Origin: Bryum argenteum
Taxonomy: Eukaryota; Streptophyta; Bryopsida; Bryales; Bryaceae
Direction: 5' to 3'
Length of the DNA stretch: 64,000 nt
NCBI GenBank assembly: GCA_037043015.1
Contig: CM073330.1
Coordinates: forward strand, 12,976,512 to 13,040,511
The notes beneath the pieces are model-generated. The model worked only from the letters and a program-made list of their open reading frames with translations. It had not been told where the DNA came from and searched no databases. Numbering within the stretch: the stretch's first letter is position 1; every line of letters starts with the position of its first letter. Of the stretch, positions 9,665-63,713 are shown in pieces. A program made the translations under genes and the position numbers.

Positions 9665-10739
9665 CAACGCTCAAGTAATGTATCCTTGAATACTATAACC
9701 CAAGAAGATACTTACCAACTTAAACGGAGCACCTCTCATTTTTTGCTCCACAAGGCATAGGCAAATGAACGTCACAAGGACCTCCCACTTCACCACTTAA
9801 CTTTTATTCATATTTGATATGATCATCAACCGTAGGAAATGAGTACGAGTGAGTACAAATACAGTGTCTCATTCACATGTGTCGAGAGTTCAAATGGCTG
9901 CACTACGAAAAATTCTTGCACTGCTCACCTCTTTTTTAACGTAACGCGACCACCAGCCATAAGCAAGAACTACACTCACCTCTCCATTTCTTGTTTAATG
10001 CAAACCTGCACCTTATCTTTCCCAGACCGATGTGTTTTTATTCAAGACTCCAATGGGAGTTGAAACAGTAATATAATCCCAATCGTGGGAAGCAAAATCA
10101 GTCTAAAACTTGACCCTAGATCGTCAAATTTTAGAACACCTTGGAATCGAGGTGGAGATTTCTATAGACTTGGACTGAAATCTATTGTTCTTCATTAATC
10201 GAACCAGACGAACACACTCATATATGATTACACCGCTTCACGACACTGTGCTTGAAGCTCCTTCTTTATTCAAGAACACACACAAGAAGACGAACAGACA
10301 ACAACGTGACAGTGAGACAGAAACAAAGTTATTCCCACTCAGCTGAACACAGGATGAGAACGAAGACTAAACTTCATCCAAACAACGATAGTCATCTAAA
10401 CTAAAGAACTAAAGAGCTGTTCATGCTACTAAGTACTTCATCACAATGTAAACCAATAAAATCCAACCGCGAACAGACACTGGGTGAACGGATTGTTGGA
10501 GAAGAAATGGCAACATCAGTACGCTTTTCATGTCTGTTTTCTTCCATAGACCTCTTGAACAATTTTAGATCTTTCATTCCCAAGTCAAGAACGATTTCAG
10601 AACACCTTCTCTAGAACCTTACAAGGCTAGGGAGATTTTTACCACAAAAGTATACCTGGATTTGGAAGTCAATTACCAACCGAAGCTGGATGAACGGGTT
10701 GACGAAATAGCGGAGCTGAGTGGACTAGGCGGAACATGA

Positions 10740-13698
10740 TCAGTAAGCTTGCGGATGAGGATCCCCTTCGATCGGGGGTGGGGGGTTCTGCATGTGATTA
10801 CGTATGCCCAGGCTGTAGGAATTCGGGAACCTTTTACAAGCCCACACCACGAAGAGGACCACCAACAGAAAGGCTCCTATCACACTGCCAGCAATCACAC
10901 CCGTATTGGGCGAATCATCGTGAGTGCTACATTCCTCACAGCAAGCGAGGTCTTGGATGGTGCTTTTTGTGTCTGTTCTATTGCACAGACCTCCGTTGTC
11001 CGCATACCCTTCTGCACATGCTTGCACTGTTCCATCCTGTTCCATTCACCTCACTCTCGTTAATTGCAGGACTGGTGGCATTTGGCATTGAGCCACAATT
11101 GCAAGCATTATTTACGAGTGATTGTGCTTACCGGGAAGCTGGTGCAATTTGCAGAAGTATGTAGGATCGCCTTGGTAGGATGACTGTATCCTGTCACTCT
11201 ACGTCGTAATGCATCTTTGACAGGATTCGTCCGGTTTCCCAATAGATCCAAGTAGATCGAAACGCCAGTCACGCCAATGAGATCACCGTTAGCGTTGAAA
11301 GCTGCATTCAGACTTACAATATTAGCACAAAATCAACGCATCAAGCAATTGACAAAGTGTAATTCAGGATTATTCTCAAGCGTACCGTTTCGAGACACAG
11401 AGATTGCAAGTACCTGGTTGGGTGACACACGTTAAGTTGCCGCCGATGAGCTCGAAGTCCTGGTATATATCGCTGTACTGAGGCATCCCGTTGGTTTCGA
11501 TTCGCTTAAGGTTGGCGAAGTAGGAAAAGTATTTGTTGAGAACAAGCAGGGGATTCTCCAAGTCCCGCACGACGGCTTCGTAGTGACCACCAATTCTACA
11601 GAGCTGCGTAATCAGTGACGACGAGGTGTTCGCCAGAGCCACGTCCTCCTCCTTACTCTGCGGCAACTTGTATAGAAACACCTTCAAACCCGCGGCAGCA
11701 TCCGGAATTGTAACATTCCCGAATGTCGTAAACACAGCATCGGTGAGCACCAGAATCGCCTGCAATCGCACTTTCAGACTCCAAGGGTGATAAATGTCAC
11801 TTCTAAATTCTATCACAACCAGGATCAATAGGTGCCAGGGATGAAAAGCTCGGTCGCTCGCACCTTGGCAGCCAAGGAATCGGAGTCGAAATTGGGCAGA
11901 GCAACCAGAATAGCAGCCGTGATATTCGATTGCTTGTTTTGGCTCTCAACATCTAGGCTCTCCAACTCGTCCAGCAGATGTCTAAGCTCAGTTCGATCGG
12001 TGTTGTCATGCTCGACTAGGATCTGTTTCATGCCACGAAACAGTGAACTTGGCAAACAGAGTTCAAAGGTGACGCTTGGTAAACGTTACCTACACTAGTG
12101 CAGAACCGTGGTGTTTCAACTGTCTACTGATAAATAAACTTCATACAAACATTAGTGGTATATTGAAACATTAGTGAGAGAAAATGGTTGATATGTTGAT
12201 GATAATCTCCGCACTGTTTCAATGTTTCGACCATGGTTCTGCACTATCGCTATATGAAAACTTAAGACAACTTACTGACTGCAGGCTCAGGGGATACGCT
12301 CCCTTGCTGTTAAAGACAATGAAGTTGACGTGGTCACCGGCGCTGAGCGTTGTCATCAACTCCCTGACAATGTTTCTCGCCGCTTGCAGCTTCGTTCCGA
12401 CTCCGTTACCGGGTGGCAGGTTGCCGTTCATGGACGATGCTAGGTCGATGAGCACGATCACCACCTTCGTCACCGACGTCGACGTCCGAAACCATGGCCG
12501 TGATCTAAGGTCGTAGCTGTCACAATCATGCTCTCGAGCCTGCTCCCAAATGAAAGTAACATTTCTCAACGACAATTTTGGACTAGTTAGGTGATGCAAT
12601 TTCTGGCTGTACATGTGCAACCTGATTGATAATGATCACGAATAAGTTCTCGAATGGACATCTACGGTTTGAAACTGTTACCGCTCCGGGGAGTACTCGC
12701 CGCCAAAGTTCCGAAATAAGATCGAGTGAAAGTATTTGAGTTCGCCATTGCCCACGTCTTTAGCAACGGATCCAACTCTCTGTGTGAACATACGGAAAGC
12801 ATTGTATTCACACTGCCTCTGCTCGAAGACTTTGCCAATCTACAGTCACACACATTCAAGCGCCACCTTGTCAGTAAACACCGAATCTCAAACCGTGTTG
12901 GAAGCAAGCTTGATGAGACCTTGCTAATTGCAAAAAAAGCATACCTGACATAACTCTGCTTGTAATCCAGATTCATGCTCTTACAGGGGCTGCCTCCGAT
13001 GGCTGGACAATACGGGCTATTGATGACCGGTTTGCACGAGAGCCCCTCTCTATCCCCGCGCAACGGCTCACAAACGCCGTGCGAACAGTTATTGTAATTG
13101 TCATAATAGCACGTTGCCAGCAAGACTGCAAGCAAATCGATGAGCCCATCTATCAAGTTTTAGCGCATAAAGAAACCTCACACTCGTTGTGTGTAATCAG
13201 TAAGGATGTTCAGGTGCATTGCCACTTGAAACCCGAGAGCAGGTATGAATGAATCTAGTTACAGAAAGTCAATCTGAAACTCCAGAGCTAAACCAAGACT
13301 AGCTAGACGTAGAAGTAAGGATAATGAAAAGAATGGTGAGGTCGAAATTAACAGTTCAGGCTCTATATTGAATGCCTTGCTAGTATTTGCAGCACCGGGC
13401 ACTTAACCAAGCGGTATTTTTTGAGTTCTGAAGTTGCATTCACTGTAGAGTAAACGATCAAGACTCTGATTACGACTGTTTCATCGAAGGCGAACGGATA
13501 CGCGTGGGTACTAATTCCGAAGAGATGGTGCAAGAATATGTTACCACATTGTGTATTGTAGTTGGCGATGGCGAGTTCAGCTAACTTTTTCACCTGGGCT
13601 TGACATGAGTCCAAGAAATCATCCCCTTCGTCTCCAACAACGGCGCGAGGACCAGAGAACAGCAACACGAGCAGAAGCAGGACCCAACACGTATTCAT
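10740..13698 (-). CDS. VWA/Cache-like single-TM protein, copy 1 (alpha2delta/CACHD1-like), probably impaired
   Basis: Eight exons are visible on the minus strand: 13698-13512, 13149-12950, 12839-12682, 12582-12276, (12089-11864), 11759-11414, 11301-11132 and 11036-10740. The product has a signal peptide (MNTCWVLLLLVLL; an in-frame ATG two codons earlier also exists), a Cys-rich segment, a VWA domain with DLASS at the metal site, a Cache-like segment (GDLIGVTGVSIYL) and a C-terminal membrane helix. This order matches animal alpha2delta and CACHD1 proteins. Compared with copy 3, exon 3 is 8 nt shorter, but with the CTAG acceptor at 12582 exon 4 also differs so that the frame is kept. Exon 5 has lost the acceptor used by copies 2 and 3 (CGTCAG has become CGTCAC), and the upstream alternative runs into a stop. 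Skipping exon 5 would keep frame and give about 554 residues. Confidence 0.68.
12093..12246. mobile_element. MITE-like inverted repeat in intron 4 of copy 1
   Basis: The intron is bounded by CACTAGTGCAGAACCGTGG and the inverse of AGTGCAGAACCATGG. The same termini bound intron 4 in copies 2 and 3, so insertion preceded the triplication. No coding content. Confidence 0.5.
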
Positions 13699-14039
13699 CC
13701 TCATACCTACTATTAGAGTGATACTACAATCTGTAAGTTCGATTTCAGGAACTTGAATATGAACCTGCAAACTAGGAGACTAGACAGAGTACTTCGAATC
13801 AAGGAGTTAGTTGTCGGTAGGACACATGCACCCACGGATAAACGCTGATCGATACTTGAACAGCGGAGCTCGGCCGGAAATCTATCATGAGCTTATTCAA
13901 TCTGGGCATCAGCATTATCCGGTTTCGGGTGTCAGGAACTTCGTTGCGTACGTTCGATACCCGGATGTGCTAGTCCAGTGATCGAGCACAAGCCGGACTC
14001 ATAGTCTATTTCTTGCACTGATATTTCCATTTAGGTCGT

Positions 14040-14760
14040 CACTCGCTTCGATTCGTTTTCTGGTGGAGTGTGTCTATGTATGAAGCTAAAGTTCTTGTAA
14101 AATTCAAGGTACTTCTATAATTTGTTCGATTCATATTATTTTGGAGGTCAACTGTGGTTTAATTGACTGGTGTGCATGAATTTCGATTGCGTTCAGTAAG
14201 AGATTCATCTATCTTACTGTGATCAGTAACCTCAGTAACTTCATGACTCCGATGATTGTACCGTAAATTCCCTGACGCATTTTGGTGTGAATGGCGATGG
14301 CTGGGATGGTGTTGGCGGTATTGGTCCTTGCCATAAAAGCAAATAGGGGCAATGGTGATAGCTTGGATGACGGTGGTGATAATGGTCCTTGCCATAAAGG
14401 TAGGGACGATGGTGATACCTAAGATGGCGTTGATGATAATGGTGCTTGTCGTCGAGGAAAACGGGGACAATGACCGTGCTTGGATGGTGTTGACGATAAT
14501 AGTGCTCGCCGTCAAGGCCAACAGGGACGATGGTAATGGTGATAAAGTTGCTTGTTGTCAAGGCAAGAGGGGTCAAGGCAAAGTGGGACAATGGGATGGC
14601 TTGGATGGTGTTGGCAATGATGGTGCTCGTTGTCAAGGTAAAACGGGATGGCGAATGATGACTTGGAAGGTGTTTGGCGATAATGGTGCTCTTTGTCGAG
14701 GCAAACTGGGCCAATTCTAGTAGTATGGTACTCTGTTTCAAAAATATTGATACAGGTTGA
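14040..14760 (+). pseudogene. Copy of the acid phosphatase 5-prime region, with minisatellite expansion
   Basis: 14100-14200 contains GGAGGTCAACTGTGGTTTAATTGACTGG..., clearly related to the sequence upstream of the phosphatase start (25670-25720, GGAGGTCAAATTGGGGTTAAG). From 14283 to 14712 there are about six copies of a roughly 65-70-bp unit built on GCTTGGATGGTGTTG and ATGATGGTGCTCGT. The same words encode the phosphatase signal peptide at 25872-25925. Long open frames here are a by-product of the repeat. I read this as a decapitated 5-prime end carried by the tandem duplication. Confidence 0.55.
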
Positions 14761-15379
14761 ATTGATCGACCTAATTCGACCTAATTTGAAGCATTTTAGC
14801 TGAAAGGAGATTTAGCTTGACTGCCTCCATGGAATCCGACCACTTTATTGCATATTTTCACTTCGGAAATTACAACGAATAGTCCTACAAAGAAAAAGTG
14901 TGAGTACAAGATTTAACCTCATTGCCAAATTTTTCGAGCACCTTAGAATGAGGCAATGTTTCTCTCGAAGAAACTAAACTAGAATTTTCATTCTAACACA
15001 ACTTTGTCAGAGACAGATTGAATGAAACAAGCCAGGTACTCTACTCACCTCTCTATTTCCTTGCATCTTATCCTTCCTAGAACTACATCGATCAATGTGT
15101 GTACCTTCAGAAATTCTAATGGGAATTGCACCTCATCCTTCCTATCACTACCTAGATTGATGGGTGCAATACCTAGCAAATGATTTACTTTCAATGTAGA
15201 GAATAGACTTGGAGATGTTATTTTGAATTGATATTACAAAATCAATTTTGGGCCAAATCATGGATGGAAAATTGCATTGGAAAGGCAACAAAGTGTACTT
15301 AAACTTATTAAGAATATTTTACAACAAACTTGCAAAATTATATAACAATATAGTATCTTACAATAGGATACACTACCTA

Positions 15380-15650
15380 CCATCGTATGCTACCACCTTT
15401 AGCATCAATTACAGCCCTCATACGTTTAGGCGTGCTAACAATGAGGATCTCGGTTATTTCCTAAGAGATATCTTCCCATACTTGTTCAATGGATTCAATC
15501 AATTCTTCTTGGTTTTGTGCTAACGGTCCATTTTGTACATAGCCCTTTACAATCTTCCATATATTTTCTATACGCGATCTCTAAAAACCTAAAATCTATG
15601 ATTGTTGACATTTCAGAACGTCCCAAATGCAACAACTGATGAATCACGAA
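15380..15650 (-). pseudogene. Tc1/mariner transposase C-terminal fragment
   Basis: The minus strand reads WKIVKGYVQNG, then EELIESIEQVWEDIS, a stop, then a frame ending RMRAVIDAKGGSIRW. This layout (W-K, EELIE...W, then RIxAVIxAKGG) is the usual C-terminus of Tc1/mariner transposases. An in-frame TAG and the absence of the catalytic region make it a dead fragment. Confidence 0.65.
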
Positions 15651-16042
15651 TATGGTTTTCATGTTTCCACACAGTCTCACAGCTAGATGTTCAAAATTCT
15701 TATCAAATTCTCATTCCGAAGTCACCCTACTCCAACAAACTTGCGCCAGCAGAAACGAACATATCCCATTCGTTGAATATTGTACAACTTCAGAATTCCA
15801 ATATGAATTGACGCAGTATCACAAAGCAAACTGAACAAAAGCGAAGTGAGTTCAGAACTTGACCTCTTCGCCAAATTTTAAAAACCTTAGAACCTCATAA
15901 ATGAGATGTTTACCACAAAGGTAGACTTGGACCACAAAGCTAACCACCAACAGAAGCTGGATAAACTTTGAAGATATGGCTAGCTGAGTGGACGTCCTCA
16001 ACGTCAAGCGCGCTAATATTCTGCAATGCGCTTGATCAAGGG

Positions 16043-19000
16043 TTATGTGATCGGGAGTTGTACGATCGGGCGTATTGGGCCTTGGTCATTCACCGGCTTC
16101 CGGAACCTTTTCAAAACCCACACCACGAAAAGGACTAATAACACAGCACCCAAAATGGTTCCTACCACACTGCCAACAATCTTCCTCGTATTGGACGGTT
16201 TGTCGGAACCACCCTGACATATCTCACAGCAAGCGAGGTCTTGGATGGTGCTTTTCGTGTCTGTCTGCTCACACAGACCTCCGTTCTTCACATATCCTCC
16301 AGCACATGCCTGCGCTGTGCCATTCTGCCATTCACCTCACTCCCGTCAATTGCAGGACAGGAATCATGTGACATTGAGCCACATTGTAAGCATTGTCTAT
16401 GGGTGATTGTGCTTACCAAGAAGCTGGTGCAATTTGCAGAAGTAAGCAGGATCGGCTTCGTAGGATAACTGTACCCTGTCACCCTACTTCCCAATGCATC
16501 TTTGACGGGATTTGTCTTGTCTCCCAGTAACTCCATGTAGATCGAAACGCCAGCCACGCCGATGAGATCCCCGTCGGCGCTGAAAGCTGCATCAGCACTT
16601 ACAGTGTTAATGGAACACATGCCTGACAAGCAACTATAGTGTATCTCAAAATAAATTTCCAGCGCACTGCTTTGGAACAGAGATTGCAAGTACCTAATTT
16701 GGTGACAGTAGTTACATTGCCGGCGAGGCGCTCGTAGTTCGGATATATATCGCTGTACTGAGGCATTCCGTTGGTCTCGATTCGCTTGAGGTTGGCGAAG
16801 TAGGAGAAATATTTGTTGAGGGCAAGCAGGGGATTCTCTAGGTCCCGCACGATGGCTTCGTAATGACCCCCCAAGGTACAGAGCTGCTTGATCAGTGACG
16901 ACGAGTTGATCGCCAGGATCACGTCAGCGTCGTTACTCTGCGGCAGTTTGTATAGAAACACCTTTGCACCCGCCGCAGGTGGGATTGTTACGTTCCCGAA
17001 CGTCGTAAACACAGCATCAGTGAGCACCAGAATCGCCTGAAAGCAGCTACCAAACGCACTCTTAGTCATTGATACTGCTGGGTGATCGATTTCAGTTCAA
17101 TCACAACCGAGAATGTGAATATTACACGAGGTGGGGATGGATCGCTCGATCGCTCGCACCTTGGCAGCCAAGGGATTTGAGTCGAAATTGGGCAGAGCAG
17201 CCAGAATAGCAGCCGTGATATTTGATTGCTTGTATTGGCTCTCAACATCCAGGCCCTCCAATTCGTCCAGCAGAGGTTGAAGCTCAGTTTGAATGTTGTC
17301 ATGCTCCTTGACTAGAATCTGTTTCAGGCCAAGAAACAGCAAACAGAGTTCAACCTGACGCTTGGTATATACGTTACCTACACTAGTGCAAAACCATGGT
17401 TGGATGGTTGGGACATTGGGTTGGTTCATCATAGTGATTCACCCATACCTTTAGTTGATGGTGTTTCAACCTTGTCTACCGATTAAATGGCTCCTCTCAA
17501 ACACTAAAAGAGTGGTTTATTGAAACACTGGTGTGAAAATATGGTTGTAACACATTCCCCGCAATGTTTCAACCATGGTTTTGCACTTACTTACTGAATT
17601 AGGGCTCAGTTGATACGCTCCCGTGCTGTTGAAGACGATGAGGTTGATATGGTCACCTCCATTGAGCGTTGGCATCAAGTGCCTGACAATGTTTTTAGCC
17701 GCTTGCAGCTTCGTTCCGACGCCGTTAGCGGGTGGCAGGTTGCCGTTCATGGACGATGCTAGGTCGATGAGCACGACCACCACCTTCATCACCGACGTCG
17801 CCGTCCGAGACCATAGCCGTGATCTATGGTCGTAGGTATCACAATCCTCCTTACTTCGAGCCTGCTCCCAAACGAAAGTGTCCTCAACGTCCATCAACCA
17901 CGACTACGATTGGAATGTAGCTTTAGCTACTCTCCCAGAACGTGGTACTTACGGAAACAAAGTCGGTCGAATACTAATAGTGAACACTTTGGCCACATTC
18001 AATAAGCATAATTTGACTAGCAAGCTGATGCATTGTTTAATTTGTGCATGTGTAACCTGATTGAACGATCATGAGTATGTTCTAGAATGGATTTTGCTGT
18101 TACCGATGCGGGAAGTACTCGCCACGATCCATCTAATGTTCCGAAATAAGATCGAGTGAGAATAGTCTGGTTCGCCCACGTCTTTAGCAACGGATCCAAC
18201 TGTCTGTGTGAACAGATAGATAGCATTGTATTCAGACTGTTTCTGCTCGTAGACCTTGCCAATCTACAGTCACAAACATTCAAGCGCCACCTTGTCAGTA
18301 AACACCGAACCTGAAACCGTGTTGGAAGCTACCTTACAAAGGCCTTACCAAGTGCACAAAAAACACAAAAAAACAGCCTACCTGACATAACCCTGCCTGT
18401 AATCCAGATTCCTGCTCGTACAGGGGCTGTTGCTGCCTCCGATTGCTGGACAATACGTACTGTCGATTACCGGTCTGCACTCGGTCCCGCCTATATCCCC
18501 CACCAACGGCTCACAAATGCCGTGCGAACAGTTCTTGTCATTATTGCACGTTGCGAGCAAATCTGCGAGCAGATCGACGAGCCCATCTATCAAATATTTG
18601 CGCATAAAGAAACCTCACACCCGTTGTGTGTAATCAGTAAGGATGTTCAGGTGCATTGCCCACTTGAAACCCGAAAGCAGGTACGAATGGATCTAGTTAC
18701 AGACAGGCTATCTTCTAGCTAGTGTGGGTTTAGCTAAACCCCATAGCTAAACCCACACTAGCTAGACGTAGAAGGATAATGAAATGGTGAGGTCGAAACA
18801 GCTCAAGCAATCGATTGAATGTCTGCCTAGTGTTGCCAGGCACTCGAACAATCGCTATGTTTTGACTTTTGAAGTTGCATCCATTGCAACGATCAAGACT
18901 CTGCCTTCGACTGTTTCATCGAAGGCGAACGGATACACATGATTGAGTACACATTTCGAAGAGATGGTGCAAGAATATGTTACCACATTGAGCATTGTAG

Positions 19001-19137
19001 TTGGAGATGGCGAGTTCAGCAATCTTTTCCACTTGGGCTTCACATAAGTCCAAGAAATCGACCCCTTCGTCTCCGACAACGGCATCACGACATCCCAGCA
19101 ACAACAAGAGCAGAAGCGGGACCCAGGAAATATTCAT
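16043..19137 (-). CDS. VWA/Cache-like single-TM protein, copy 2 (alpha2delta/CACHD1-like)
   Basis: Recognisable exons are 19137-18951, 18586-18387, 18263-18104, about 17882-17595, 17354-17160, 17036-16694, 16586-16417 and 16324-16043. The product starts with a signal peptide (MNISWVPLLLLLLLG), followed by the Cys-rich segment, VWA domain (VVVVLIDLASSMNGN), a segment GAKVFLYKLPQ, a Cache-like segment (GDLIGVAGVSIYMELL) and membrane helix VVGTILGAVLLVLFVVWVL. The region before exon 4 differs from copies 1 and 3 by an extra segment of roughly 100-200 bases, and the usual exon 3 donor does not fit the exon 4 phase. A donor 22 bases earlier (GTGGCG) would restore a 600-residue frame. Whether the gene is expressed intact is unclear. 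Exons 5-7 are nearly identical to copy 3. Confidence 0.7.
17381..17586. mobile_element. MITE-like inverted repeat in intron 4 of copy 2
   Basis: Left end CACTAGTGCAAAACCATGG, right end the inverse of GTGCAAAACCATGGTTGAAA. It is the cleanest of the three copies of this insertion. The first bases resemble CACTA-type termini, but no 3-bp duplication is evident because the flanks are splice-site sequence. Confidence 0.55.
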
Positions 19138-19439
19138 CCTCGAACCGTTTATCAGTCACTGCTACAATCGGTACTTCGGTACAAACAAGGACATTCCGTG
19201 CTTGAAGTGCAAACAAGGACATTCCGTGCTTGAAGTACGTTGACGGAACAGAGGGGTCATTTTTGGCGGTAGGCTATTCCCGCGCGATTCAGGGGATTCC
19301 AGGTCTCGGTATAGAATGTGAGCTGGTGACAGATGGGTTGTATCAAATACATTCCTGCGTAGTAGCAGATTCGCGCGGGACTTGTAGCGATTTCTTGCAC
19401 TAGATTTTGCAGTTAAATCATCCCTCTCGCTTCAAATCG

Positions 19440-19720
19440 TTAGACGATGGAGTGAGTCTATGTTCAAGGCTGAAGCTCCCGTGAGGTGTTTCATTATTTT
19501 CTTTCCTTCAGGAAATTTGGGGGTTTATTGTGCTTGAACTGGCGAGTGATTGATGAATTCATTGTTTTAAGTGAGAGATTCATCTATCTTAACCAGTACT
19601 CTCAGTGCCTTCATAGTTTCTGTGTTTGTAGACAACTTGGTATGACTGGCGATGGCTTGAGAGGTGTTTGACGAAAATGGTGCTCATCGTCGAGGCAAAC
19701 GGGGCCGATTCCAGTAGTAC
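19440..19720 (+). pseudogene. Second copy of the acid phosphatase 5-prime region
   Basis: GAGAGATTCATCTATCTTA near 19574 also occurs at 14200 in the first copy. The stretch 19640-19700 (GGCGATGGCTTGAGAGG, AAATGGTGCTCATCGTCGAGG) carries one unit of the minisatellite seen at 14283-14712. No phosphatase exon beyond the signal-peptide region follows. Confidence 0.5.
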
Positions 19721-20391
19721 GGTACTCATTCTAAAAAATATTCATTCAAGTTGAGTCGACCTAATTTGAAGCATTTACACTTGAGAGGAGATTCAGCTTG
19801 ACTGCCTCCATCGAATCATATGACCATTTTATTGCCTATTTTCACTTTGGAAATTAATGTAGTCTTACAAAGAATACTCCTACAAAGGAAAACTGTGAGT
19901 ACAAAATTTGACCTCAGTGCCACATTTTCAGAGCACCTGAGAATGAGGTGAGTTTTCTACTAAAGAAACTAAACTAGACTTTTCAGTCTGACACAACTTC
20001 GTAAAGACGGACATTGAACGAAGAAAGCCAGATACTCTACTCACCTCTCTGTTTCCTGATCTAAACAACCTTTCACCTAATCCTTCTTAGTACTACTTTG
20101 ATCAATGTGTATGTCTTCAGTATTGCGCCTCATCCTTCCTAGTACTACTACCAGATCAATGTGTAAAATTTTTAATTCCCAATGCGAATCGACGTAGTAT
20201 CACAAAGCAAATTGCGCAGAAGCGAAGTGAGTTCAGAACTTGACCACTTCGCGAAATTTTGGAACATCTTAGAACCTTGTAAGTGGGATTTTTACCACAA
20301 AAGTGGACTTGGATTTGGAAGTCAACCACCAACAGAAGCTGGATGAACTGGTTGACGAAGACATGGCGAGCTGAGTGGACGAGGCGGAACA

Positions 20392-23300
20392 TCAGTGAGC
20401 CTGAGCAGGAGGAAGCTCGTCGGCGATCGGGGGTAGGGGACCCTCTCCATCTTGCAGGGGGTGATCATGATGCCTTCTCCAAGCCAACATCCCGAGGAAG
20501 CCCATCAACAGAGCAACAAGAAGGGATCCTACCACACTGCCAGCAATCACTCCCGGATTGGACGGTTTATCGGAACCACCCTGAGCGCTACATTCTCCAC
20601 AGCAAGCGAGGTCTCGAATGGTGATTTTCGTGTCTGATTTCACACACAGACCTCCATTGTCCGCATATTCTCCTTCACATGCTTGCGGTATTCCATTCTG
20701 CCATTCACCTCACTCCCGTCAATTGCAGGACTGGTGTCATTTGACATTGAGCCACATTTGTAAAGCATTGTCTATGGGTGATTGTGCTTACCGGGAAGCT
20801 GGTGCAATTTGCAGAAGTAAGTACGATTGGCTTGGTAGGATAACTGTACCCTGTCACCCTACTTCGCAAAGCATCTTTGACAGGATTTGTCCTGTTTCCC
20901 AATAATTCCAGATAGATTGAAACGCCAGCCACGCCGATGAGATCCCCGTCGGCGCTGAAAGCTGCTTGCACACTCAAAAGCATCAGCACAAAATCAATGC
21001 AACACATGCCTAACAAGCATTTCGAAAAAATGTTCAAGTGTACATATTGTTTCGAAACAGAGATGGCAAGACAAAGCTAAGTACCTAGGCTGGTGACAGA
21101 CGTTAAGTTGCCGCCGATGCGCTCGAAGTCCTGGTATATATCGCTGTACTGAGGCATTCCGTTGGTCTCGATTCGCTTGAGGTTGGCGAAGTAGGAAAAG
21201 TATTTGTTGAGAACAAGCAGGGGATTCTCCAGGTCCCGCAAGATGGCTTCGTAATGACCCCCCAAGGTACAGAGCTGCTTGATCAGTGACGACGAGTTGA
21301 TCGCCAGGATCACGTCAGCGTCGTTACTCTGCGGCAGTTTGTATAGAAACACCTTTGCACCCGCCGCAGGTGGGATTGTTACGTTCCCGAACGTCGTAAA
21401 CACAGCATCAGTGAGCACCAGAATCGCCTGAAAGCAGCTACCAATCGCACTCTTAGTCATACTGCTGGGTGATCGATTTCAGTTTTCTCACAACCGAGAA
21501 TGTGAATATTACACGAGGTGGGGATGGATCGCTCGATCGCTCGCACCTTGGCAGCCAAGGGATTGGAGTCAAAATTGGGCAGAGCAGCCAGAATAGCAGC
21601 CGTGATATTTGATTGCTTGTACTGGCTCTCAACATCCAGGCCCTCCAACTCGTCCAGCAGAGGTTGAAGCTCAGATTGATCGGTGTTGTCATGCTCCTTG
21701 ACTAGAATCTGTTTCAGGCCAAGAAACAGTGAACTTGGCAAACTGAGTTCAACCTGACGCTTGGTATATACGTAACCTACACTAGTGCAAAACCATGGTT
21801 GCACACTGTGTTAAACTGATAGTGTGTCAAACACATGTGCCCAAGCCTTAAAGTAATCCACTCCTTCCAAACACTACACTAATGTTGAATAGTGTTGTCT
21901 TTTTCAAATTTGAAAATGCTTTAAGTCTATACTCTTGACATTAATTTTTACCAAGTTAGAGCATTGATGCCTATACTATTAAAAAACCCCATCTTGAGCA
22001 CTTTAGAGGGTTAGGAGATTGGTCATCAACATAGACGTTTAACATATTTATGTAAACTAGTGTACCTAACACTAATCAACATTATCACCGTAGTAGTACT
22101 TAGTGGCATGTTGAGACACTAGAGTGAAGTTATGTTTGAAACAGTATCTATGGTAGTAGTAGTGGCATGTTGAGACACTACTGTAGAGTGAAGTTATGTT
22201 TGAAACAGTATCTGTGGTTCAACTATGGTTCGGCACTGCTTAGTGCTAAATGAAAAACTTAAGGTAACTTACGGCATCCGGGCTCAGCTGATACGCTCCC
22301 GTGCTGTTGAAGACGATGAAATTGACGTTGTCACCTGCGCTGAGCGTTGTCATCAACTCCCTGACAATGTTCTTCACCGCTTGCAGCTTCGTTCCATCGC
22401 CGTTCCCGGGTGGCACGTTGCCGTTCATGGACGATGCTAGGTCGATGAGCACGACCACCACCTTCATCACCGACGTCGACTGCCGAAACCATATTCGTGA
22501 TCTAACATCGTAACTGTAACATTCCTCATCACTTCGAACCTGCTCCCAAATGAAAGTAACATTCCTTAACGAACAATTTTGGACTAGTGAGCTAGTGCGA
22601 TTTCTAGTAGTTCATGTGCAACTTGACTTCAATGGTGTGATAATGTTACCGTTCCGGGGAGTACTCGCCACGTCCCGACCAAAGTTCCGAAGTAAGATCG
22701 AGTGAAGGTAGTTGAATTCGCCATTGCCCACGTCTTCAGCAACGGATCCAATTCTCTGTGTGAACATACGGAAAGCATTGTATTCACACTGTCTTTCTTC
22801 GAAGACTTTGCCAATCTACAATCACACACATTCAAGTGCCACCTTGTCAGTAAACACCCAATATCTATCCGTATTGGAAGTAGCTTGATGAGGCCTTGGT
22901 AATTGCAAAAAGAGCATACCTGACATAACTCTGCTTGTAATCCAGATTCATGCTCTTACAGGGGCTGCCTCCAATTGCTGGACAATAAGGACTATTGATG
23001 ACCGGTTTGCACGAGAGCCCCTCTCTATCCCCGCGCAACGGCTCACAAACGCCGTGCGAACAGTTTGTGTTCTTGGTATTATAGCACGTTGCCAGCAAGA
23101 CTGCAAGCAAATCGATGAGCCCATCTATCAAGTTCTAGCGCACAAAGAAACCTCACACTCGTCGTGTGTAATCAGTAAGGATGTTCAGGTGCATTTCCCA
23201 CCTGAAACCCGAAAGCAGGCTCGAATGAATCTAGTCACAGACAGGCAATCTGAAACCCCATAGCTAAACCCACACTAGCTAGACGTAGAACTAAGGGTAA

Positions 23301-23659
23301 TGAAATAGTGAAATCGGAACAGTTCAAGCATTTGATCGAATTCCTGGCTAGTATTTGGAGAGCTGCCACGCAGTTGAACAATCGCTATCTTTACATTTTT
23401 GAAATTGCATCCATTGCAACGGTCAAGACTGTGCCTACGACTGTTTCATCGGATACGCGTGAGTACTAATTCCGAAGAGATGGTGCAAGAATATGTTACC
23501 ACATTGAGCATTGTAGTTGGCGATGGCGAGTTTAACAATCTTTTCCACCTGGGCTTGACTTGTGTCCAGAAAGTCATCCCCTTGAACATCTCCGACAACG
23601 GCAACAACAAGACTCCCAAGCAGCACCGCGAGCAGAAGCGGTACCCAGCATCTACTCAT
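20392..23659 (-). CDS. VWA/Cache-like single-TM protein, copy 3 (alpha2delta/CACHD1-like), intact
   Basis: Eight exons join into one open frame of 631 codons: 23659-23467, 23124-22925, 22815-22650, 22583-22273, 21753-21547, 21427-21085, 20961-20792 and 20697-20392, all with GT-AG signals and matching phases. Residues 1-22 are a signal peptide. A Cys-rich part follows (about 65-130), then YNAFRMF-type sequence before the VWA domain (about 228-400). The YDVRSRIWF stretch just before it corresponds to the YDxRxRPWY that precedes VWA in alpha2delta. The metal site is D234-L-A-S-S238. A Cache-like segment lies around 475-530 (GDLIGVAGVSIYLELL). A Cys-rich stalk and one membrane helix (about 579-601) precede a 30-residue basic tail. 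In animals such proteins traffic and tune calcium channels; the plant role is unknown. Exon 2 could include an extra upstream exon that I cannot judge. Confidence 0.75.
21780..22236. mobile_element. Expanded MITE-like repeat in intron 4 of copy 3
   Basis: Same left end as in copy 2 (CACTAGTGCAAAACCATGG) and a degenerate right end. The interior has grown and includes a direct duplication of about 65 bases around 22100-22210 (TAGTGGCATGTTGAGACACT occurs twice). Confidence 0.5.
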
Positions 23660-23700
23660 TCTTTAGTGCTCGTCAGCCACTAATGCTACAATCTGTACTA

Positions 23701-37026: not shown

Positions 37027-40000
37027 TTAGCGCCGGCGTGGGAAATGAGCTTTTGCGTGGCACTCTAAATGCATCCAAACATTGCCACAATCTCGACAAA
37101 TGTAGTTAGTGCGCCTATTTTTCGACTTGCAATGGCCACATCGGTGTCGAGATTTTGGCACTCTCTCTAAAGAGTGAGTGCCCGGGGTGGAGTTGTAAAA
37201 TGAGACAACTCCAAGGCGCTCCAAAGTCCACTTCTCCATGAGAGAAAAAGCTAGATGTTTGACAAAATCCAAGTGAGTTTTTGCTTCTTTAGATAACGCC
37301 TTGTGCTCCCACTTGTGAATAATCCATGAATTTGTAATAGCGACATCAATTAGAAACATAAATAATCGATGCCACCACTTGTGACTTTTTGTTAGAGTGG
37401 TGTACACTCCACGTAATTGATCTGAGACATCCACACCACGCATTTTGGTGGTGTATTCTACATGAATAGGGGATGTAGGGATTCGCAAAACCCGCCCCTT
37501 AGAGTAACGTGGCACCGTTAGTGGCTCAAGTGCTACCGGCTCCGCATGAGATGATAATAGAAGCACGGGCTTCTTATCAACCCATACTAATGCACATAAT
37601 GATCCCGTGGAATGCATCATCCATTCCATAGTGCCTTGGGGTTCTTTGGCCCATCTCTTTTTGTCAATCAACAAACTAGGTAACCCCACACGGTTGGCCC
37701 TCACCGTTCCCGTGCCATATGTACCCAAATTATACAAATCCACTAATAACTTGGGAGAAGTGAAAAAATTGTCGGTGACAACTACATGGCCTAAGCCATG
37801 TAATCCCTCCATCAAACCCATGACTACTTCATACCCGGTTTTTGCTTCCCCCGGTTTAGCCAAACGTAGGTTTTTTTTCAAGTCCGCCCCCGTGTACACT
37901 TGAAAATTGTACAAGTACTTAGAATTTGCATCCGCCGCCGCCCAAATTTTGAAACCAAACTTCACCGGTTTATTGGGCATGTATTGTTTCATGCCATGCC
38001 CATAACCTCCTTTGTAACGAACCATAAGTTCATCAATAGTCACATATTGGCCTAAATTCCAATTAGTAATGCAACATGTCCTCACTTCCTCAATTAGCCA
38101 ACGTAGTTTAGCTAATTTATCAAAATCAGGATGGTTTCGATCGGTAGGAGCCCCCGAATCATCATGGACATGTAAGCACTTAGAGATAGCTTCAAACCTC
38201 TTTCTACCCATAGTGCGTGCCATTCTATTACAATAAAAGAAGGGCTCATTCCGGTGCCAATAAAGCCTCCTATTTGGCAAAACTTTCAAACCCATGAGCA
38301 TTATGATGCCAAGCCATGCTTCTAATTCTTGAACTTTCAATCTCCACCAATTACTTGGCCCACGGGTTTTCCCGGTGTTTGGGTCAATAGAGGCTGCATA
38401 GCGATTAGTTTCCATACATATTTTCTTTAGTGTGAGTTTTGAAAAAAACTTATGGAATAAGTCATAGATTGATGTGACTTCCCTAAGAATATGAGGAGGA
38501 CCTTCCATTGGCCCAATAAAGTTAACATGATCATGAGAGTACTTAGAACGTTGTTTACCCCAATATTTGTCCTCATAGCATTCTTTGAATGTTGGACCAC
38601 TCTCCCAACATACTGGAGCTCTTTCTATGACACTTCTCCCACCTCGTGTATGTCTAGTAACACCCCTTCCTCCACTAGTAAGTCCCCGGCCCCGCATACC
38701 TTGTAAATTCAATGTACTGCTGAGTGAAAGCGATTCACGTTCGGATAAGTCCCCTCTCTCGTAAATAGATGTGCTCAATTGTCTACCAATATCGTCCAAT
38801 AATTCATTTGGAATTAAAATATCCGGCGCCACATGGCCGTTGTCCACATGCTCTACATGTCCAGCTCGATCGTGATAAAGACTGCCTCCAATAAGAGCCG
38901 CTAACGTCGGGTCGATGGTGGGGCTTTCACCAACGGCTGTTTCAGCTACTCGCTCGGTCCGTGGAGGCGAAGATAACGGCTCCCTTGGCTGCCCCTGACC
39001 CCTGCCTGGTCGCCCTGACCTTCTGGCTCGGCTCCTTCCTGCCATATGCCGCCCTCGATCGCTCCCAGGTCGCTCTTCCCGCCATCCGTCGAGGCGCGAT
39101 CGCCACTCCCGCCCTCCGACCTCGTTGCCTGGCTCCGCCTCGTGCTCCAGCGCGACCTCCAACGACTGCTCCGGCATTACTTCGAAATTCTCGCCGCTGA
39201 CTTCGCCTCTCCGCCCACCAACATGGCTGCCTGCAAGCACACTGGATTCGTTGGTTGTGGCGATGGTGCGCTGAAGAGAGTAGATTGAAGCAGTTGAGTC
39301 TGCATCTTCCACACCAACGTCGTCTTTCATGAGTAAGAACTCCAACTCTTCTTCGTTGTCTGAACTGTCAGGGCCTGCAGAGGACTCATGTTCGTCGACA
39401 CACTCATGTTCATCTTCCTCAATATTTGTCTCTGTGTGTGCATAGGTTGACTCAATAAATCCGAACGGAACATTCATAATTTCCCCGTTTATTTCCACCT
39501 CATACGTCAATGTCTTAGAATCATCGGATACAAAACTTCTCAAAGCACTTCCCATGATCCACTCTTCTTCTTCCTGACTATCTTGAATCTGAGTTAGATC
39601 ATGATTTTTTAGTATCCTCACTCGCATTGGGGCTATGAGATCTGCAGGTACTAGCGCCCAAATCGCTTGCGGTTCGTGATCACTGCTCCTGGGCTGCTGC
39701 GCCGCTGTCGAAGGTGGATAAAACGCCGCTGTTGGGCTCCTGTGACAAACTTGTGCCATTGCAGAGCTCCTGCCGCGACCCTGACCATTGATCTGCTTCT
39801 TCGCTCGAGTTTGGAGTTGATGCTCTCTTCCGGGTCTTCCGCGTTCTTGTGACTCGGAGTCGTTTAGTGCGTCGCTGCCGAGGTCGATTGGCTGCTCCAG
39901 CGTGCTCATGATCACCTGCGTATCCTCCCTGGTTGCTGACGACCGGCGTGCTTGCCTTCCCGACGTCCTCGGATTCGGCGCCGTACTCTTGCATGACCGC

Positions 40001-40350
40001 TTTACCTTCGTTGTTGGGACCGTGGGGCTCTTGCTTCCCAGCCTTACCGCCGTGGTCGGTGACGCCGTAGACCCGCCAATCCGCCTTGCTGCAGTTGCCG
40101 TATCTAGCAACGTGATCTCCAGTCTCTGCCTTGCCGTCGTAGACGAGTCCGCTGCGCTCCTCTCCCGCCGCCTCAATGCAGTCGAGTTGCGAACCATTCG
40201 TCCCTCCGCCGACAGCAACTCGTCGGACGCCTCCAGCGACATCCGCCTCCTCTCCGAAGTCGACATCGACCGCTCCTGCGATAAGCGCCTCCCCTCCGAA
40301 ATCGACCTCGACGGCTGCAGCGACTGCGCTGGACTCCTTGGCATCGGCAT
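37027..40350 (-). CDS. PiggyBac transposase (DDE_Tnp_1_7)
   Basis: A 1107-codon open frame. The first 560 residues are low-complexity, Ser/Arg-rich and acidic. The catalytic domain runs from about 600 to 1010, and the three acidic residues are present: D773 in TIDELMVRYKGG, D860 in VVTDNFFTSP and D974 in MRGVDVSDQL. A C-terminal Cys/His-rich finger (CGHCKSKNRR, CRDCGNVWMHLECHAKAH) corresponds to the DNA-binding domain of piggyBac. It acts in the nucleus to cut and paste TTAA-flanked elements. No stop or frameshift interrupts it, so it may be active or only recently silenced. The N-terminal start is uncertain: an overlapping frame upstream suggests a spliced first exon. It lies between the inverted ends at 35278 and 41715. 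Confidence 0.9.
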   Translation of the reverse strand: MPMPRSPAQSLQPSRSISEGRRLSQERSMSTSERRRMSLEASDELLSAEGRMVRNSTALRRRERSAADSSTTARQRLEITLLDTATAARRIGGSTASPTTAVRLGSKSPTVPTTKVKRSCKSTAPNPRTSGRQARRSSATREDTQVIMSTLEQPIDLGSDALNDSESQERGRPGREHQLQTRAKKQINGQGRGRSSAMAQVCHRSPTAAFYPPSTAAQQPRSSDHEPQAIWALVPADLIAPMRVRILKNHDLTQIQDSQEEEEWIMGSALRSFVSDDSKTLTYEVEINGEIMNVPFGFIESTYAHTETNIEEDEHECVDEHESSAGPDSSDNEEELEFLLMKDDVGVEDADSTASIYSLQRTIATTNESSVLAGSHVGGRRGEVSGENFEVMPEQSLEVALEHEAEPGNEVGGREWRSRLDGWREERPGSDRGRHMAGRSRARRSGRPGRGQGQPREPLSSPPRTERVAETAVGESPTIDPTLAALIGGSLYHDRAGHVEHVDNGHVAPDILIPNELLDDIGRQLSTSIYERGDLSERESLSLSSTLNLQGMRGRGLTSGGRGVTRHTRGGRSVIERAPVCWESGPTFKECYEDKYWGKQRSKYSHDHVNFIGPMEGPPHILREVTSIYDLFHKFFSKLTLKKICMETNRYAASIDPNTGKTRGPSNWWRLKVQELEAWLGIIMLMGLKVLPNRRLYWHRNEPFFYCNRMARTMGRKRFEAISKCLHVHDDSGAPTDRNHPDFDKLAKLRWLIEEVRTCCITNWNLGQYVTIDELMVRYKGGYGHGMKQYMPNKPVKFGFKIWAAADANSKYLYNFQVYTGADLKKNLRLAKPGEAKTGYEVVMGLMEGLHGLGHVVVTDNFFTSPKLLVDLYNLGTYGTGTVRANRVGLPSLLIDKKRWAKEPQGTMEWMMHSTGSLCALVWVDKKPVLLLSSHAEPVALEPLTVPRYSKGRVLRIPTSPIHVEYTTKMRGVDVSDQLRGVYTTLTKSHKWWHRLFMFLIDVAITNSWIIHKWEHKALSKEAKTHLDFVKHLAFSLMEKWTLERLGVVSFYNSTPGTHSLERVPKSRHRCGHCKSKNRRTNYICRDCGNVWMHLECHAKAHFPRRR

Positions 40351-55894: not shown

Positions 55895-58800
55895 TCAGTC
55901 GTTCAATGACAGAAGCATGGCAACTCCTCGGCGAACCCAATGATCCGGGTCCAGAATTGTGGGCAGCTCGCAATTGAAGACGAAGTTGGAGGAGTGACCC
56001 GTCGTTGCCAACACACCCCGCCGCTCCGATGTTCGATATAATGGACACATGTAACACCTCTGATGTCTCTTCTCCGCCATCGTTGTGGGAAACAACCACA
56101 ACATGGGCGCCTCCGAGAACAAAACCTGCACAACAGTCAACATCCAGACCTCGTTCAGAATCAGCCAAATGTTTCACAGGAGCATAAATGTCGCAGAAAG
56201 CTTTGATACCTTCTCAAAAGACTCCATGACAGACATCTCGCCGTCATCCCAACGGGCGCCATTCATAAACATTCCATAAACGTAGCACCCATCCTCGGGT
56301 TTCTTGCTGTAGTCTCCGGATTTCTTCAAGGTGTTGAACTCGAAGCAGACGGTATCGATGGGGATTCGATACTTTCTGGCGTAGTTCTGCAGCACGCCGG
56401 TGAGAAAGGCGTGCGTGAAGTAGAAGCCACTGATCCAGAACTGCACGGGAGGGCCGTGGTCCATCCAGTCCTGCAGCATCTTCAGCCTCGCCACCAGATC
56501 GTTGAAGTAGCTCCCCAGCGGCATCATGGTCGGGTAGCTGGCCGGAGCCCACAGGACCGGCATCTTCTGGTTGAAGAAGTTCACCGACAGCGTCTCAATG
56601 GCCGCCGACATCACCACCAGCCCCTGCAGTGCCTTTTTTAGTGTCCCCAAGCTCGCCCGGATCACCTGCCATGCTCCAAATCAAAGTCTGAGTAACCCCA
56701 TTTTGAGAATCATCGAAAGAGTATCAAGGTTCGACACAGTCACGTACATCGGTAAGCTTGTTGAAGCGGACCATCTCTTGCACAAGCACGGAGTTCATGC
56801 TCTCCTCGTAGCGCACAGGGTACATGAATCGGGTCAGCTCCAGATCAAATGCAGGTGGCAGCCTATTCAACTGATCCACCACCATCTCCATGATGATACT
56901 CTCCCGGCTTCTTCCTCCGCCTGTTCTACTTTGGGCCTGCAACAACAGTTGAGCTTCAGTTTCTTTCTTTCTTTCCCATTGAATATGTGAACAGGAGGAC
57001 GAGAAGGTTGTGAGACCTGAGTGGAGCGAATGGAAAGCAGGAGCAGGTCCACTTCTTGTTGGTCCTTGGTGATGTCTGCATTTTCATGCAGGCCAAAGAC
57101 TTCCGGAGTGGCCAGCAGAGGAAACCTCTTCACATGTTCAATGTACTCCTCCCATGCGCAATCTTCAGGGACGGTGTAGATGCCGGAGGGCGAAAGTTTG
57201 TACTCATGGTCCGTTAGAATCTCTGGCTTGTAGATGACCGCTAGGATGCTGATGAGCGTCCTTCGGTCGTGCGAGTCCGTCACCCTGCCACCGTAGTTAC
57301 ACTCTCCCGTCACGTAATTCAGTGCCTGCACTCAGTTTTTGAGTTTAGTTACTGATTTGTGCTGGTTTGTCACAAAATGTGTATTTTGCAGGAACAGCTT
57401 GAAGTTGATGTACCTTCCATGGAACGACATCAGGCCATTCGATGAGAAACGATTGCAGCTGTCTCATACTGATTTTCAGGTCAGGATCACTGAATTGGTA
57501 AGGAATATTCCATCCGAGAGGGCCGAACTTGACACGCTCTTGCACTGCTGCATGGAAAAAGCAAAGACCAAACAACATCTTTCTCCATGTTGGCGCTTTG
57601 TCGCCGTCGATCTCGTAGAAAAACTTTGGATCATTGATAGGATAACTCGAATAACTCTGATCAACCCGCATTCGTTGACAAGGTTAGTAACGGTTGAGTT
57701 TATGAGCCTCGAGGCTCTGCCTTCACTCTCACGCAAATCATTTCCTGCCGGTACAATGCTCTGTATCCCAGGTACTTACTTGAATCATGTTGGCTCGCAG
57801 TCCTTTGGGCGACTCATTTGTCATTTTGACTCCATTTTGGAGAATAGAAACTGGAAACTGGTCTGAAGGGTAGCTGGTGAGCCAGAGCCGGAACATCACA
57901 TTCGTCGTCTCCGAAGTGAGCTCCTCGCAGATCTTCTCCAGAGAAGGCATCCATGAAGGCGCCAGGTGACAGTTTTGCAGCACCACCCAGTCCCCATTCC
58001 TTGTTCCATTTGCAATCAGCTCTGCTGCCTTGGGACCTTGCCCTTGCCCCAGAGAGATCGTAATCACCTGTTGGTTGAATCAAATCAAACAGTGAGCAGA
58101 ATTCTCTACAACCTATCATTCGACGATTTTACTACAGAATGCCGGAGCAGTACCTCGTGGGCGTCTTCTTCGGCGTATTTGAGGAGAGCAGCCATGGGAT
58201 CTGACCCGGGGGAGAGCATGAAAATGAGGGGAATGAGGGCATTGGAATCGCCGAATGCGCCTGCCAAGTTGAACCCAGGAGGCTCGATGTAGCGTTGTCC
58301 CATGGCATCCAGCAGGTAGCTATTCACAGCTCCCACCAGTTTGTCCGGTCGTAACACACGGATCACCAGCAGCCTCCGGAAGATGGATATCTTGCTCGGC
58401 CAGTTCTCAGGCATGAGCTCGTTATACGGCTCCTGGCAGTTGTAGAAACCCTGCCATCCTGTCGTGTTTTTGGCGAACGAGTCGGACAGTCCCTGCCACA
58501 TGCAACCCAATCCTTATACTCGTGACTTCTCTTAAAGCAACAACATTCAAAGTAATGGTAATGTTGGTACCGCAAATGCTGGCAGCTTGGAGAGCCAGAC
58601 CATTTCGTTCCATAGCTTATCGGACAGCCATTTGGAAGGGTTTGGGTCGGGGACTTTGGCAGTGGACGATGGGCCAGCGAGGAAGAACGTCCACTCGTCC
58701 TGATCCAAGGTCCCCTCCCGTGACATGTTGGTTGAATTGATGAGCAACGACAGCAGCATCTTGTCTTTCTCAAACAGACTCCGAGAAAGGTTGCAATACA

Positions 58801-61800: not shown

Positions 61801-63713
61801 GTGCCAGAAGAATGTTCGTATCTTCCGCGGTCTTGAGCAGAATCGGCTGCAGATCTTCCAACTCCTGCTTCATCACCGTCACTTGACCCTCCGCGAAGAA
61901 GACCTTCTCCAGTCCCATCTGCACATCCACTCATGGCGGATAACCCATCTTGTGATATCGAAAGTGCACCAATTTCTTTACATTCTCATCAAGATTCAGA
62001 AAATTAAGGCTGGTTTGAGAGTACCGCGTATCTGTTTCGGACGCGGTCAACCTCTGTGCGCTTGAGATGCAGAAGGTCTTTGTACGTAGCCAGAAGCTCC
62101 AGGTACGAGGTGGGAGTTACGTATATGTACCGCCCTTGCTCTTGGAGGAACGCAGCAGACAAAGCAGAGCCTCGAGTGTGAAACCTCATGCACATATCTC
62201 GCACCGCCAAGTGATATTTCTCGTCGATGCCAATCTGCACGCCAACCATTGATCACTCAACACCCTCGAAAAAGTAATCCACATCCACATCCTTTGGATG
62301 TCATCAACTTATGGAGGAGGAGGAGGTACATAGCAAGCTCTCAATAATCTTTTGGCAACAATCCTCAGGTGAGTTCCACAACAACTGCTCGATCGGATTG
62401 TCATGAAAAGAGTACATAAACATGTGATCCTTCTCATGTCTATCCGAATTTGGCACAATCGTCAGCATGCTCAGAACAATCCAGTGAGTGAGGATGATGA
62501 GCAGCTTACAGAGGCAACAAAATTGGTGGCGACGGAGCGCAGAGCCTCTTCAGGCCATTCACTGAACCAGTCGATAGTGCAGCAATTCACGAGTGAAGGG
62601 AACATACGCAGGCGAGTGCGAAAGGCATCTCCGAAGGGACTCATGGCAATCACCATGTGGAGGTTGGTTCGGCACTGGTCTACGAAATAGAGGTACAGCT
62701 CTGCTATGGAACCATCCCGGCCGGCTTTCTTCGCTCGGTTTCGCACTGCATCTAGCAATGGCATGATCTCGTCTTTTGGGTACAGATTCGGCACCTGCAA
62801 GATTGAGCAAGTGTCGGTAGAATTCTTTGTCCATGTTTCAGTTTTTCAATTCAAAGTTGTAAGATCAAGTATGTTAATACCTCGCCTGTGTTGAGGATGT
62901 TGTTGATATCTTCCAGAAATTGCTCCAACTTCAGCTGTGTGTCGTTGAATAGAAATACTGTGGGCATGTTGTCTGCCCCTGCTTTTTTCAGTACCAACTG
63001 TGAATGAAGGCATATACAAACGTTAATGAACCACTCGAATATTCCATTTTGACATTCTACCATTTTTGTCACAATGGCATATTTGGTTAGGTTTCCAAAA
63101 TGACACCTCCAATGTTGTTACAGAGCACCTATTGCTTCTTTGTAGTATCACTTATCCATCAGGGTTGTCTTATCAGTCAAAATTCCTATTCATTTGTCAC
63201 ACACAATTTAGATGAGATATACATCTAAGACGTCTTCAATCTCATCTAAATTGTGTCTAACTGTAAATGAATAGGAATTTTGTCTAATAAGACAACACTG
63301 CTATCCATGTAATATCATCCTCTCATTTTGTTGAATTCTAACCCCGTGAAAGTGTCATTATAGTGGAATATTGTCTATTTATTGGAATTGAGGTTTTTGT
63401 ATGAAGGTTGGGTACCTTGAGATCTTCACACCATTCTAGAATGCCATAGAGTTTTGTGATTTCGACTTGGAAAAGACCGAATCCAGCCATAGATGTGGCA
63501 AGTCGAGTGAGAGATTGGCGACCACCACCTCCCACTCCTACCAAGAGTGCATTACCAAAAGGTTGCCTGATAATGCGACTAATTCGTAGAACATGTTGTG
63601 CGGCGTATGTGAAAAGTACAAGATGCATGGGGCTTCTTGTTTGTGCATTAAATTCATTCAATCCTTCATGAAGCATTTGTAACAATTTGACATGGTCACT
63701 AATCTCTTCGTAC
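55895..63713 (-). CDS. Axonemal dynein heavy chain, C-terminal part (inner-arm type), truncated by the window
   Basis: Twenty exons join into 1739 residues without a break: 63713-63416, 62997-62882, 62794-62510, 62234-62025, 61918-61673, 61501-61366, 61287-61015, 60905-60717, 60436-60044, 59929-59657, 59486-59307, 59221-58983, 58898-58571, 58492-58154, 58067-57780, 57656-57414, 57325-57017, 56936-56748, 56665-56210 and 56125-55895. Order of parts: AAA4 P-loop ([11 protein letters not shown]), stalk coiled coil 1, microtubule-binding tip (near [15 protein letters not shown]), coiled coil 2, AAA5 ([30 protein letters not shown]), AAA6 ([26 protein letters not shown]-type block) and the C-terminal cap ([29 protein letters not shown]). 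It is the motor of sperm flagella. The cap resembles single-headed inner-arm chains (DNAH3/7/12 group). Upstream exons lie beyond the window. Confidence 0.93.
63050..63390. mobile_element. MITE with long hairpin in a dynein intron
   Basis: The intron 62998-63415 contains two arms, 63164-63221 and 63240-63296, that are near-perfect inverses (TTGTCTTATCAGTCAAAATT against AATTTTGTCTAATAAGACAA, continuing to ACACAATTTAGATGAGAT). The hairpin is surrounded by words such as AATGACAC and CAATTCCAATAA that recall the MITE at 30512. The ends given are approximate. Confidence 0.65.

Follow-up and report, generated by a model that had tools for sequence, protein, structure and literature searches.

The window analyzed here, 64,000 nucleotides of the Bryum argenteum genome (assembly GCA_037043015.1, contig CM073330.1; C10:12976512-13040511 in our numbering), carries a tandem array of three related genes, all on the minus strand. 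The sequence comparisons described below show that their products are homologous to the part of the animal proteins alpha2delta and CACHD1 that comprises the first Cache domain and the VWA domain; alpha2delta is a subunit of the voltage-gated calcium channels (Cav). A repeat search and alignment recovered the repeat families D1-D7 in register across the three copies, with spacings of about 5.3-5.4 kb and 4.4-4.7 kb, and thereby confirmed the three tandem genes of an initial annotation of this DNA. That annotation had started the array at position 9975 of the window and had given the third copy a product of 631 residues, whereas in our models the genes cover 10743-23659 and the product has 599 residues.

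Copy 3 (20392..23659) is intact and consists of 8 exons at 23659-23500, 23100-22920, 22815-22650, 22539-22273, 21753-21547, 21427-21085, 20961-20792 and 20697-20392. Its model was made by hand, and a purpose-written protein-to-DNA spliced aligner that placed the copy 2 protein on the DNA of copy 3 recovered identical exon borders, except that the last exon ends 18 nucleotides early because the alignment is local. Copy 2 (16043..19137) is likewise intact in a hand-made model, with 8 exons (19137-18984, 18562-18382, 18263-18104, 17861-17595, 17354-17160, 17036-16694, 16586-16417 and 16324-16043) encoding 583 residues. All introns in both models are of the GT-AG type with consistent phases. The likeness of these two copies lies far beyond chance, with 449 of 581 aligned residues identical; their nonsynonymous and synonymous divergences are 0.128 and 0.266 (dN/dS of 0.48), and the strongest constraint is seen in exons 5 and 7 (dN/dS of 0.175 and 0.189, respectively). 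Copy 1, delimited by alignment and models, extends from 13698 to approximately 10743; exon 3 is short of 8 nucleotides, the CAG acceptor in front of exon 5 is gone, and its first model was full of stops. Given that the reading frame stays open only when three splice sites are shifted (the acceptors to positions before 12532 and 12074, the donor to one after 12280), we grade this copy as probably decaying rather than as proven dead. Intron 4 of copy 3 contains two tandem 64-bp units (22093-22218).

The products of copies 2 and 3 share a common order of parts: a signal peptide, a cysteine-rich part, a first Cache half ending in a Y-D-x-R-S-R-x-W motif, a VWA domain, a second Cache half, a second cysteine-rich part, a single membrane helix and a short tail. 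All of the parts listed in the initial annotation, including the Cache-like segment after the VWA domain and the single C-terminal helix, are thus present. Hydropathy revealed only two hydrophobic stretches, which in copy 3 are the signal peptide region (residues 1-28; 23576..23659) and the lone transmembrane helix (residues 544-572; 20476..20562). The tail that follows has 27 residues in copy 3 and 18 in copy 2 and contains no Pfam domain above cut-off; the weak matches of PF13801, PF19857 and PF21314 to the tail and helix all fall below theirs. In copy 3 the first Cache half closes with Y-D-V-R-S-R-I-W-F (22486..22512), which aligns with YDVRRRPWY of alpha2delta-1; the VWA domain is spread over exons 4-6 (21203..22467); and the second Cache half, encoded by exons 6-7 (20876..21202), contains IYQDF...LIGVAGVSIY, which aligns with VYLDA...LGVMGVDV of alpha2delta-1. 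Between this half and the helix lie about 80 cysteine-bearing residues, in which no Cache match was found. With the exons joined, the Pfam model VWA_2 exceeds its cut-off of 27 bits in both copy 3 (31.6 bits) and copy 2 (32.4 bits); a Pfam scan of single open reading frames and an NCBIfam scan gave nothing above the curated cut-offs. Taken with the homology, this order indicates type I membrane proteins whose ectodomain is a Cache fold with a VWA domain inserted into it and a cysteine-rich segment on either side.

To define the extent of the family, the copy 3 protein was compared with the whole assembly (258.8 Mb in 25 contigs). This search yielded at least 73 matches, which we grouped by eye into the array of the window and at least 11 other regions on contigs C2, C5, C6, C7, C8, C9 and C11. 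We extracted 13 stretches and modelled 18 loci in total, namely the three of the window and 15 elsewhere; hence the earlier description of the gene as triplicated holds for the window and understates the family. Of these models 13 are free of stops and 5 contain one or two stops, it being understood that the models were guided by the consensus of the family itself and that an open model means a stop-free splice path exists and nothing more. Some paralog branches in the tree of the family exceed one change per site; we made no use of its deep order because the long branches pair up (L048 with L051, and L049 with L050). One locus, L039 (C6:10126000-10131500), is 96.5% identical to copy 3 over 4055 nucleotides, with a VWA region that is damaged in the model. 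Three further loci, L040, L041 and L042 (C7 at 16.30 Mb, C8 at 1.93 Mb and C2 at 18.67 Mb), represent a broken member: across some 2.2-2.3 kb they show 98.7-99.3% identity to each other, their identity to copy 1 of the window is about 92%, and they share a common stop and a common absence of the VWA part. They are a gene fragment that was spread to three contigs, perhaps through carriage by a mobile element.

The relationship to alpha2delta is detectable with single proteins. Copy 3 alone, searched against the PDB at E-values up to 10, retrieved 13 distinct sequences, all of them alpha2delta-1, with a best E-value of 0.0019. The Smith-Waterman score of copy 3 against the alpha2delta-1 segment is 113, and none of 500 shuffles reached it (mean 37, standard deviation 4.7, maximum 61); copy 2 scores 100 against the same segment, again unreached by 500 shuffles (maximum 56). 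When copy 3 was divided into parts, the score of the pre-VWA part was reached by 4 of 2000 shuffles and that of the VWA part by none of 2000. The paralog L051 on its own matched alpha2delta-1 with an E-value of 3.7e-11 and CACHD1 (8s7c) with 7.7e-4.

We then constructed a sequence profile (A2) from 9 of the 13 open models, without any animal sequence, leaving out W1, L039, L043+ and L047 as near-duplicates or doubtful. In a search of the PDB at E-values up to 1, alpha2delta-1 occupied the top 13 of the 29 sequences recovered (E-values of 1.5e-25 to 1.8e-25), in an unbroken alignment over profile positions 118-439 of 552 that runs from the first Cache half through the VWA domain to the second half. 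Its consensus reads LDslf...YfGsvdG...PG...ydpRkrpWy, then the VWA domain, then iYedferl...LiGVvGvdv, and it ends at the GVxGxD signature. The best chain containing only a VWA domain reached 4.8e-6, about 19 orders of magnitude weaker. The pre-VWA piece alone was matched by the chemoreceptors PctB (2e-5), PctA (4e-5) and 6pxy (1.2e-4), and the post-VWA piece weakly by the chemoreceptors 6d8v (0.011) and 4xmq (0.065); also of note were matches to a kinetochore protein (0.02) and, at E-values above 0.1, to a few VWA proteins, and CACHD1 did not appear among the matches of this profile within that limit. Scored by part, the profile gave 27.9 bits before, 40.1 bits within and 16.2 bits after the VWA domain, whereas the highest-scoring shuffles reached 8.3, 8.6 and 7.4 bits (among 1045, 1350 and 1113 reported of 2000 each). 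A profile of four members (W3, W2, L049 and L044) gave 50.6 bits over its whole length, with a shuffle maximum of 6.7. Further, a Pfam scan of six paralogs found VWA or VWA_2 above cut-off in five, and PF22673, a PDC/Cache sensor model, directly after the VWA domain in four: L048 (8.3e-6, 26.7 bits), L044 (5e-5, 24.1 bits), L046 (6e-4, 20.7 bits) and L051 (0.056, 14.3 bits). None of these passes the cut-off of 27 bits, and L049 and L050 gave no match to this model in the scan.

Several observations weigh against this reading. On its own, the post-VWA half of copy 3 is weak, its score being reached by 41 of 2000 shuffles, and when the second half of the VWA domain is added to it 139 of 2000 shuffles reach the score; the 16.2 bits of the corresponding profile part amount to an E-value of just 0.09. 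The segment of copy 3 from the middle of the VWA domain onward, searched against the PDB at E-values up to 10, retrieved no alpha2delta and only four designed WRAP proteins, whose E-values (5.5e-7 to 5e-6) are summed over repeats, the single stretches being insignificant. In copy 3, PF22673 matches in the correct position but scores no higher than 12.9 and 13.4 bits, and a profile of two members gives an E-value of only 0.012. The Pfam models VWA_N and dCache, which the initial annotation had proposed along with VWA for verifying the copy 3 product, matched neither copy 2 nor copy 3 in full length at E-values up to 1. Finally, homology guided the splicing of the divergent paralogs, and the ends of these models are rough, with doubtful small exons. 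Taken together, both flanks of the VWA domain are nevertheless Cache-like, as in alpha2delta, with the second flank weaker and marginal in copy 3 alone. The earlier proposal of an alpha2delta/CACHD1 architecture therefore stands, as the unbroken Cache-VWA-Cache match shows, but the second dCache domain of these animal proteins is missing.

In alpha2delta-1 a motif for amino-acid binding is split by the VWA domain, with Y....R.WY before it and Y...D after it, and Arg241 and Asp491 are important for the effect of gabapentin, according to the available text of the study concerned (PMC9901441). We read the motif columns of the plant family as corresponding to these pocket residues. Among the nine members of the profile, the tryptophan and the post-VWA tyrosine are present in all, the arginine in eight and the aspartate in five; the first tyrosine occurs in four (replaced by F in four and V in one) and the last tyrosine of the first half in six. 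L051 carries the full motif (Y, R, W, Y, Y and D). The window copies depart from it: copy 3 has Y, R, W and F followed by Y and S, and copy 2 has Y, R, W and S followed by Y and S, so that the aspartate position is serine in both and the last tyrosine of the first half is phenylalanine or serine. Based on these counts over nine members, the family overall appears to keep a pocket of the amino-acid type, which the subfamily of the window appears to have changed. The Cache-like ligand pocket of the initial annotation is accordingly retained in copies 2 and 3 in its arginine, tryptophan and post-VWA tyrosine, and altered in its aspartate. A second site in these proteins is the metal-ion-dependent adhesion site (MIDAS) of the VWA domain, for which the canonical pattern is DxSxS, T and D. 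It is incomplete in copies 2 and 3, where one serine is replaced by alanine in D-L-A-S-S, and T309 and D334 (copy 3) are present. In L046 and L046b the DxSxS is intact, but the last aspartate of the MIDAS is N or K.

Like alpha2delta-1, the window proteins have a VWA domain set inside a Cache fold, the YDxRxRxW before and the Y...GVxG after it, and a membrane-anchored ectodomain (as far as the accessible text of PMC9901441 describes it). They differ in their size (about 600 residues, against 1046-1115 in the PDB chains), in lacking the second of the two dCache domains that give alpha2delta its four Cache modules (position 439 of 552 is the last one matched in the profile), in the replacement of the pocket aspartate and of one MIDAS serine, in their additional cysteine-rich segments and in their plant host. 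Because the second dCache domain is missing and the two replacements are found in copies 2 and 3, the window proteins are alpha2delta/CACHD1-like and not alpha2delta subunits, even though the insertion of VWA in Cache is common to both. With CACHD1 they have in common the type I membrane topology, the Cache and VWA domains and a disrupted MIDAS (PMC6231325 and PMC7615972, in the portions available). In contrast, CACHD1, which measures 1290 residues in zebrafish, contains a pair of dCache domains along with a part that binds Frizzled (PMC7615972, same portion); the window proteins reach half that length and lack the second dCache domain and, judged by length alone, the Frizzled-interaction domain. 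CACHD1 is described as raising Cav2.2 currents despite its disrupted MIDAS (PMC6231325) and as binding Frizzled and LRP6 (PMC7615972), in the sections of these papers at hand; hence, the alpha2delta type of fold is not bound to channels.

In light of this we favor, as the most likely account, that the three genes are members of a plant family that is old, has expanded and encodes extracellular co-receptors or accessory subunits, a view that by analogy with the animal proteins we hold to be somewhat better than even. The Cache part would bind a small extracellular ligand, which might be an amino acid or amine in the paralogs with the full motif, while copies 2 and 3 of the window might bind another ligand or none; a partner protein would attach to the VWA part, and binding of the ligand would alter the trafficking or contacts of that partner. 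We propose an output through a partner because a short tail without a recognized domain is unlikely to signal alone. The partner is more likely to be a receptor or a non-Cav channel than Cav, given that land plants are reported to lack Cav in a published survey, as far as its available text goes (PMC11085791). A bolder form of this proposal, which we offer as a tentative possibility on the unlikely side, is that alpha2delta-type ectodomains are independent of Cav and were kept and multiplied as surface receptors (18 modelled loci, 5 of them with stops) in a plant whose group reportedly lacks Cav, with the full-motif paralogs binding amino acids and possibly gabapentin, and the window subfamily having moved to another ligand.

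We consider a stand-alone sensor of amino acids or amines unlikely; in such a protein the VWA domain would only hold the fold together or dimerize it, and the split Cache fold would bind free amino acids in the manner of PctA and alpha2delta-1. PctA and PctB, which are amino-acid receptors, are among the profile matches and resemble the plant proteins in a first Cache half that carries R and W of the motif; L051 keeps every residue of the motif. However, copies 2 and 3 have lost the pocket aspartate and the last motif tyrosine, and show no recognized cytoplasmic output domain. Chemoreceptors of the dCache_1 type have an uninterrupted dCache domain and a cytoplasmic output, whereas in the plant proteins a VWA domain interrupts the Cache fold and the tail is short; PctA and PctB have no VWA insert, possess cytoplasmic signaling domains and contain no introns. 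A recent transfer from a bacterium is thought unlikely in view of the spliced genes and the paralog branches of more than one change per site; a search with two N-terminal peptide patterns, a weak test, gave 59 pattern stretches and found no relatives of the window proteins among 84,980 prokaryote species.

We consider it unlikely, and a little more so than such a sensor, that the proteins serve adhesion to the matrix or cell wall, with the VWA and cysteine-rich parts binding wall or partner proteins and the Cache fold surviving as a relic. VWA is a common adhesion domain, the pocket residues of the window subfamily are altered, and N-glycosylation sequons and cysteines are numerous (9 and 17 in copy 3, 10 and 19 in copy 2), all of which would suit such a role; the universal retention of the pocket tryptophan and post-VWA tyrosine across the profile members, and of the arginine in all but one, would be unexpected for a relic.

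The initial annotation had suggested, as one of two possibilities, that the product could serve a calcium channel in sperm. Besides the homology to alpha2delta across the part containing the VWA domain, a true auxiliary subunit of a Cav-type channel in flagellate sperm would be in keeping with a dynein heavy chain gene at 56-64 kb of the window, whose pieces (Dynein_C, AAA_9, MT stalk and AAA_8; 56177-63745, minus strand) all exceed their cut-offs. To our knowledge, dynein heavy chains are kept in land plants only where the sperm are flagellate (axonemal), and the gene thus suggests that flagellar genes have been retained in this plant. It is the sole basis for a role in sperm, and adjacency to it means little in a plant; together with the reported absence of Cav from land plants and the missing second dCache domain, this makes a Cav subunit very improbable, and we regard the sperm calcium-channel role as unsupported. 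The replaced MIDAS serine in copies 2 and 3 also speaks against it, though the disrupted MIDAS of CACHD1 does not keep that protein from acting on Cav2.2, according to the portion of that report available (PMC6231325). An unrelated plant VWA or copine-type protein resembling alpha2delta by chance can practically be dismissed, even though eight PF00092 matches lie elsewhere in the assembly and copy 3 from the middle of the VWA domain does not retrieve alpha2delta, since none of those eight coincides with a locus of the family, the likeness spans both Cache halves and the VWA domain, the shuffles stay below the whole-protein scores, and alpha2delta-1 lies far ahead of the best VWA-only chain.

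Among the literature matches listed, in a search that left most subscription journals outside its scope, we found no published alpha2delta-like plant family; unnamed entries of such proteins from other plants may well exist in the databases. In the available text of a published survey, Cache domains in plants and fungi are limited to histidine kinases (PMC4822843), and a plant alpha2delta-like family contradicts this limit of plant Cache to other proteins. If the lack of Cav holds for the host species, the alpha2delta fold would be uncoupled from Cav, and a plant without a Cav background would become a place to study how the gabapentin-binding fold arose and what it first did.

The remainder of the window is consistent with the plant setting assumed in the initial annotation. 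An F-box frame is followed by a Phloem protein 2 (PP2) gene (E-value of 1.3e-18), PP2 being a plant family, and genes for a LEA_2 protein and for a purple acid phosphatase are also present; Rfam and tRNA scans of the window found nothing. A 1107-residue open frame on the minus strand at 37030-40350 contains a DDE_Tnp_1_7 transposase domain (E-value of 2.1e-71), which we take to be of the piggyBac type.

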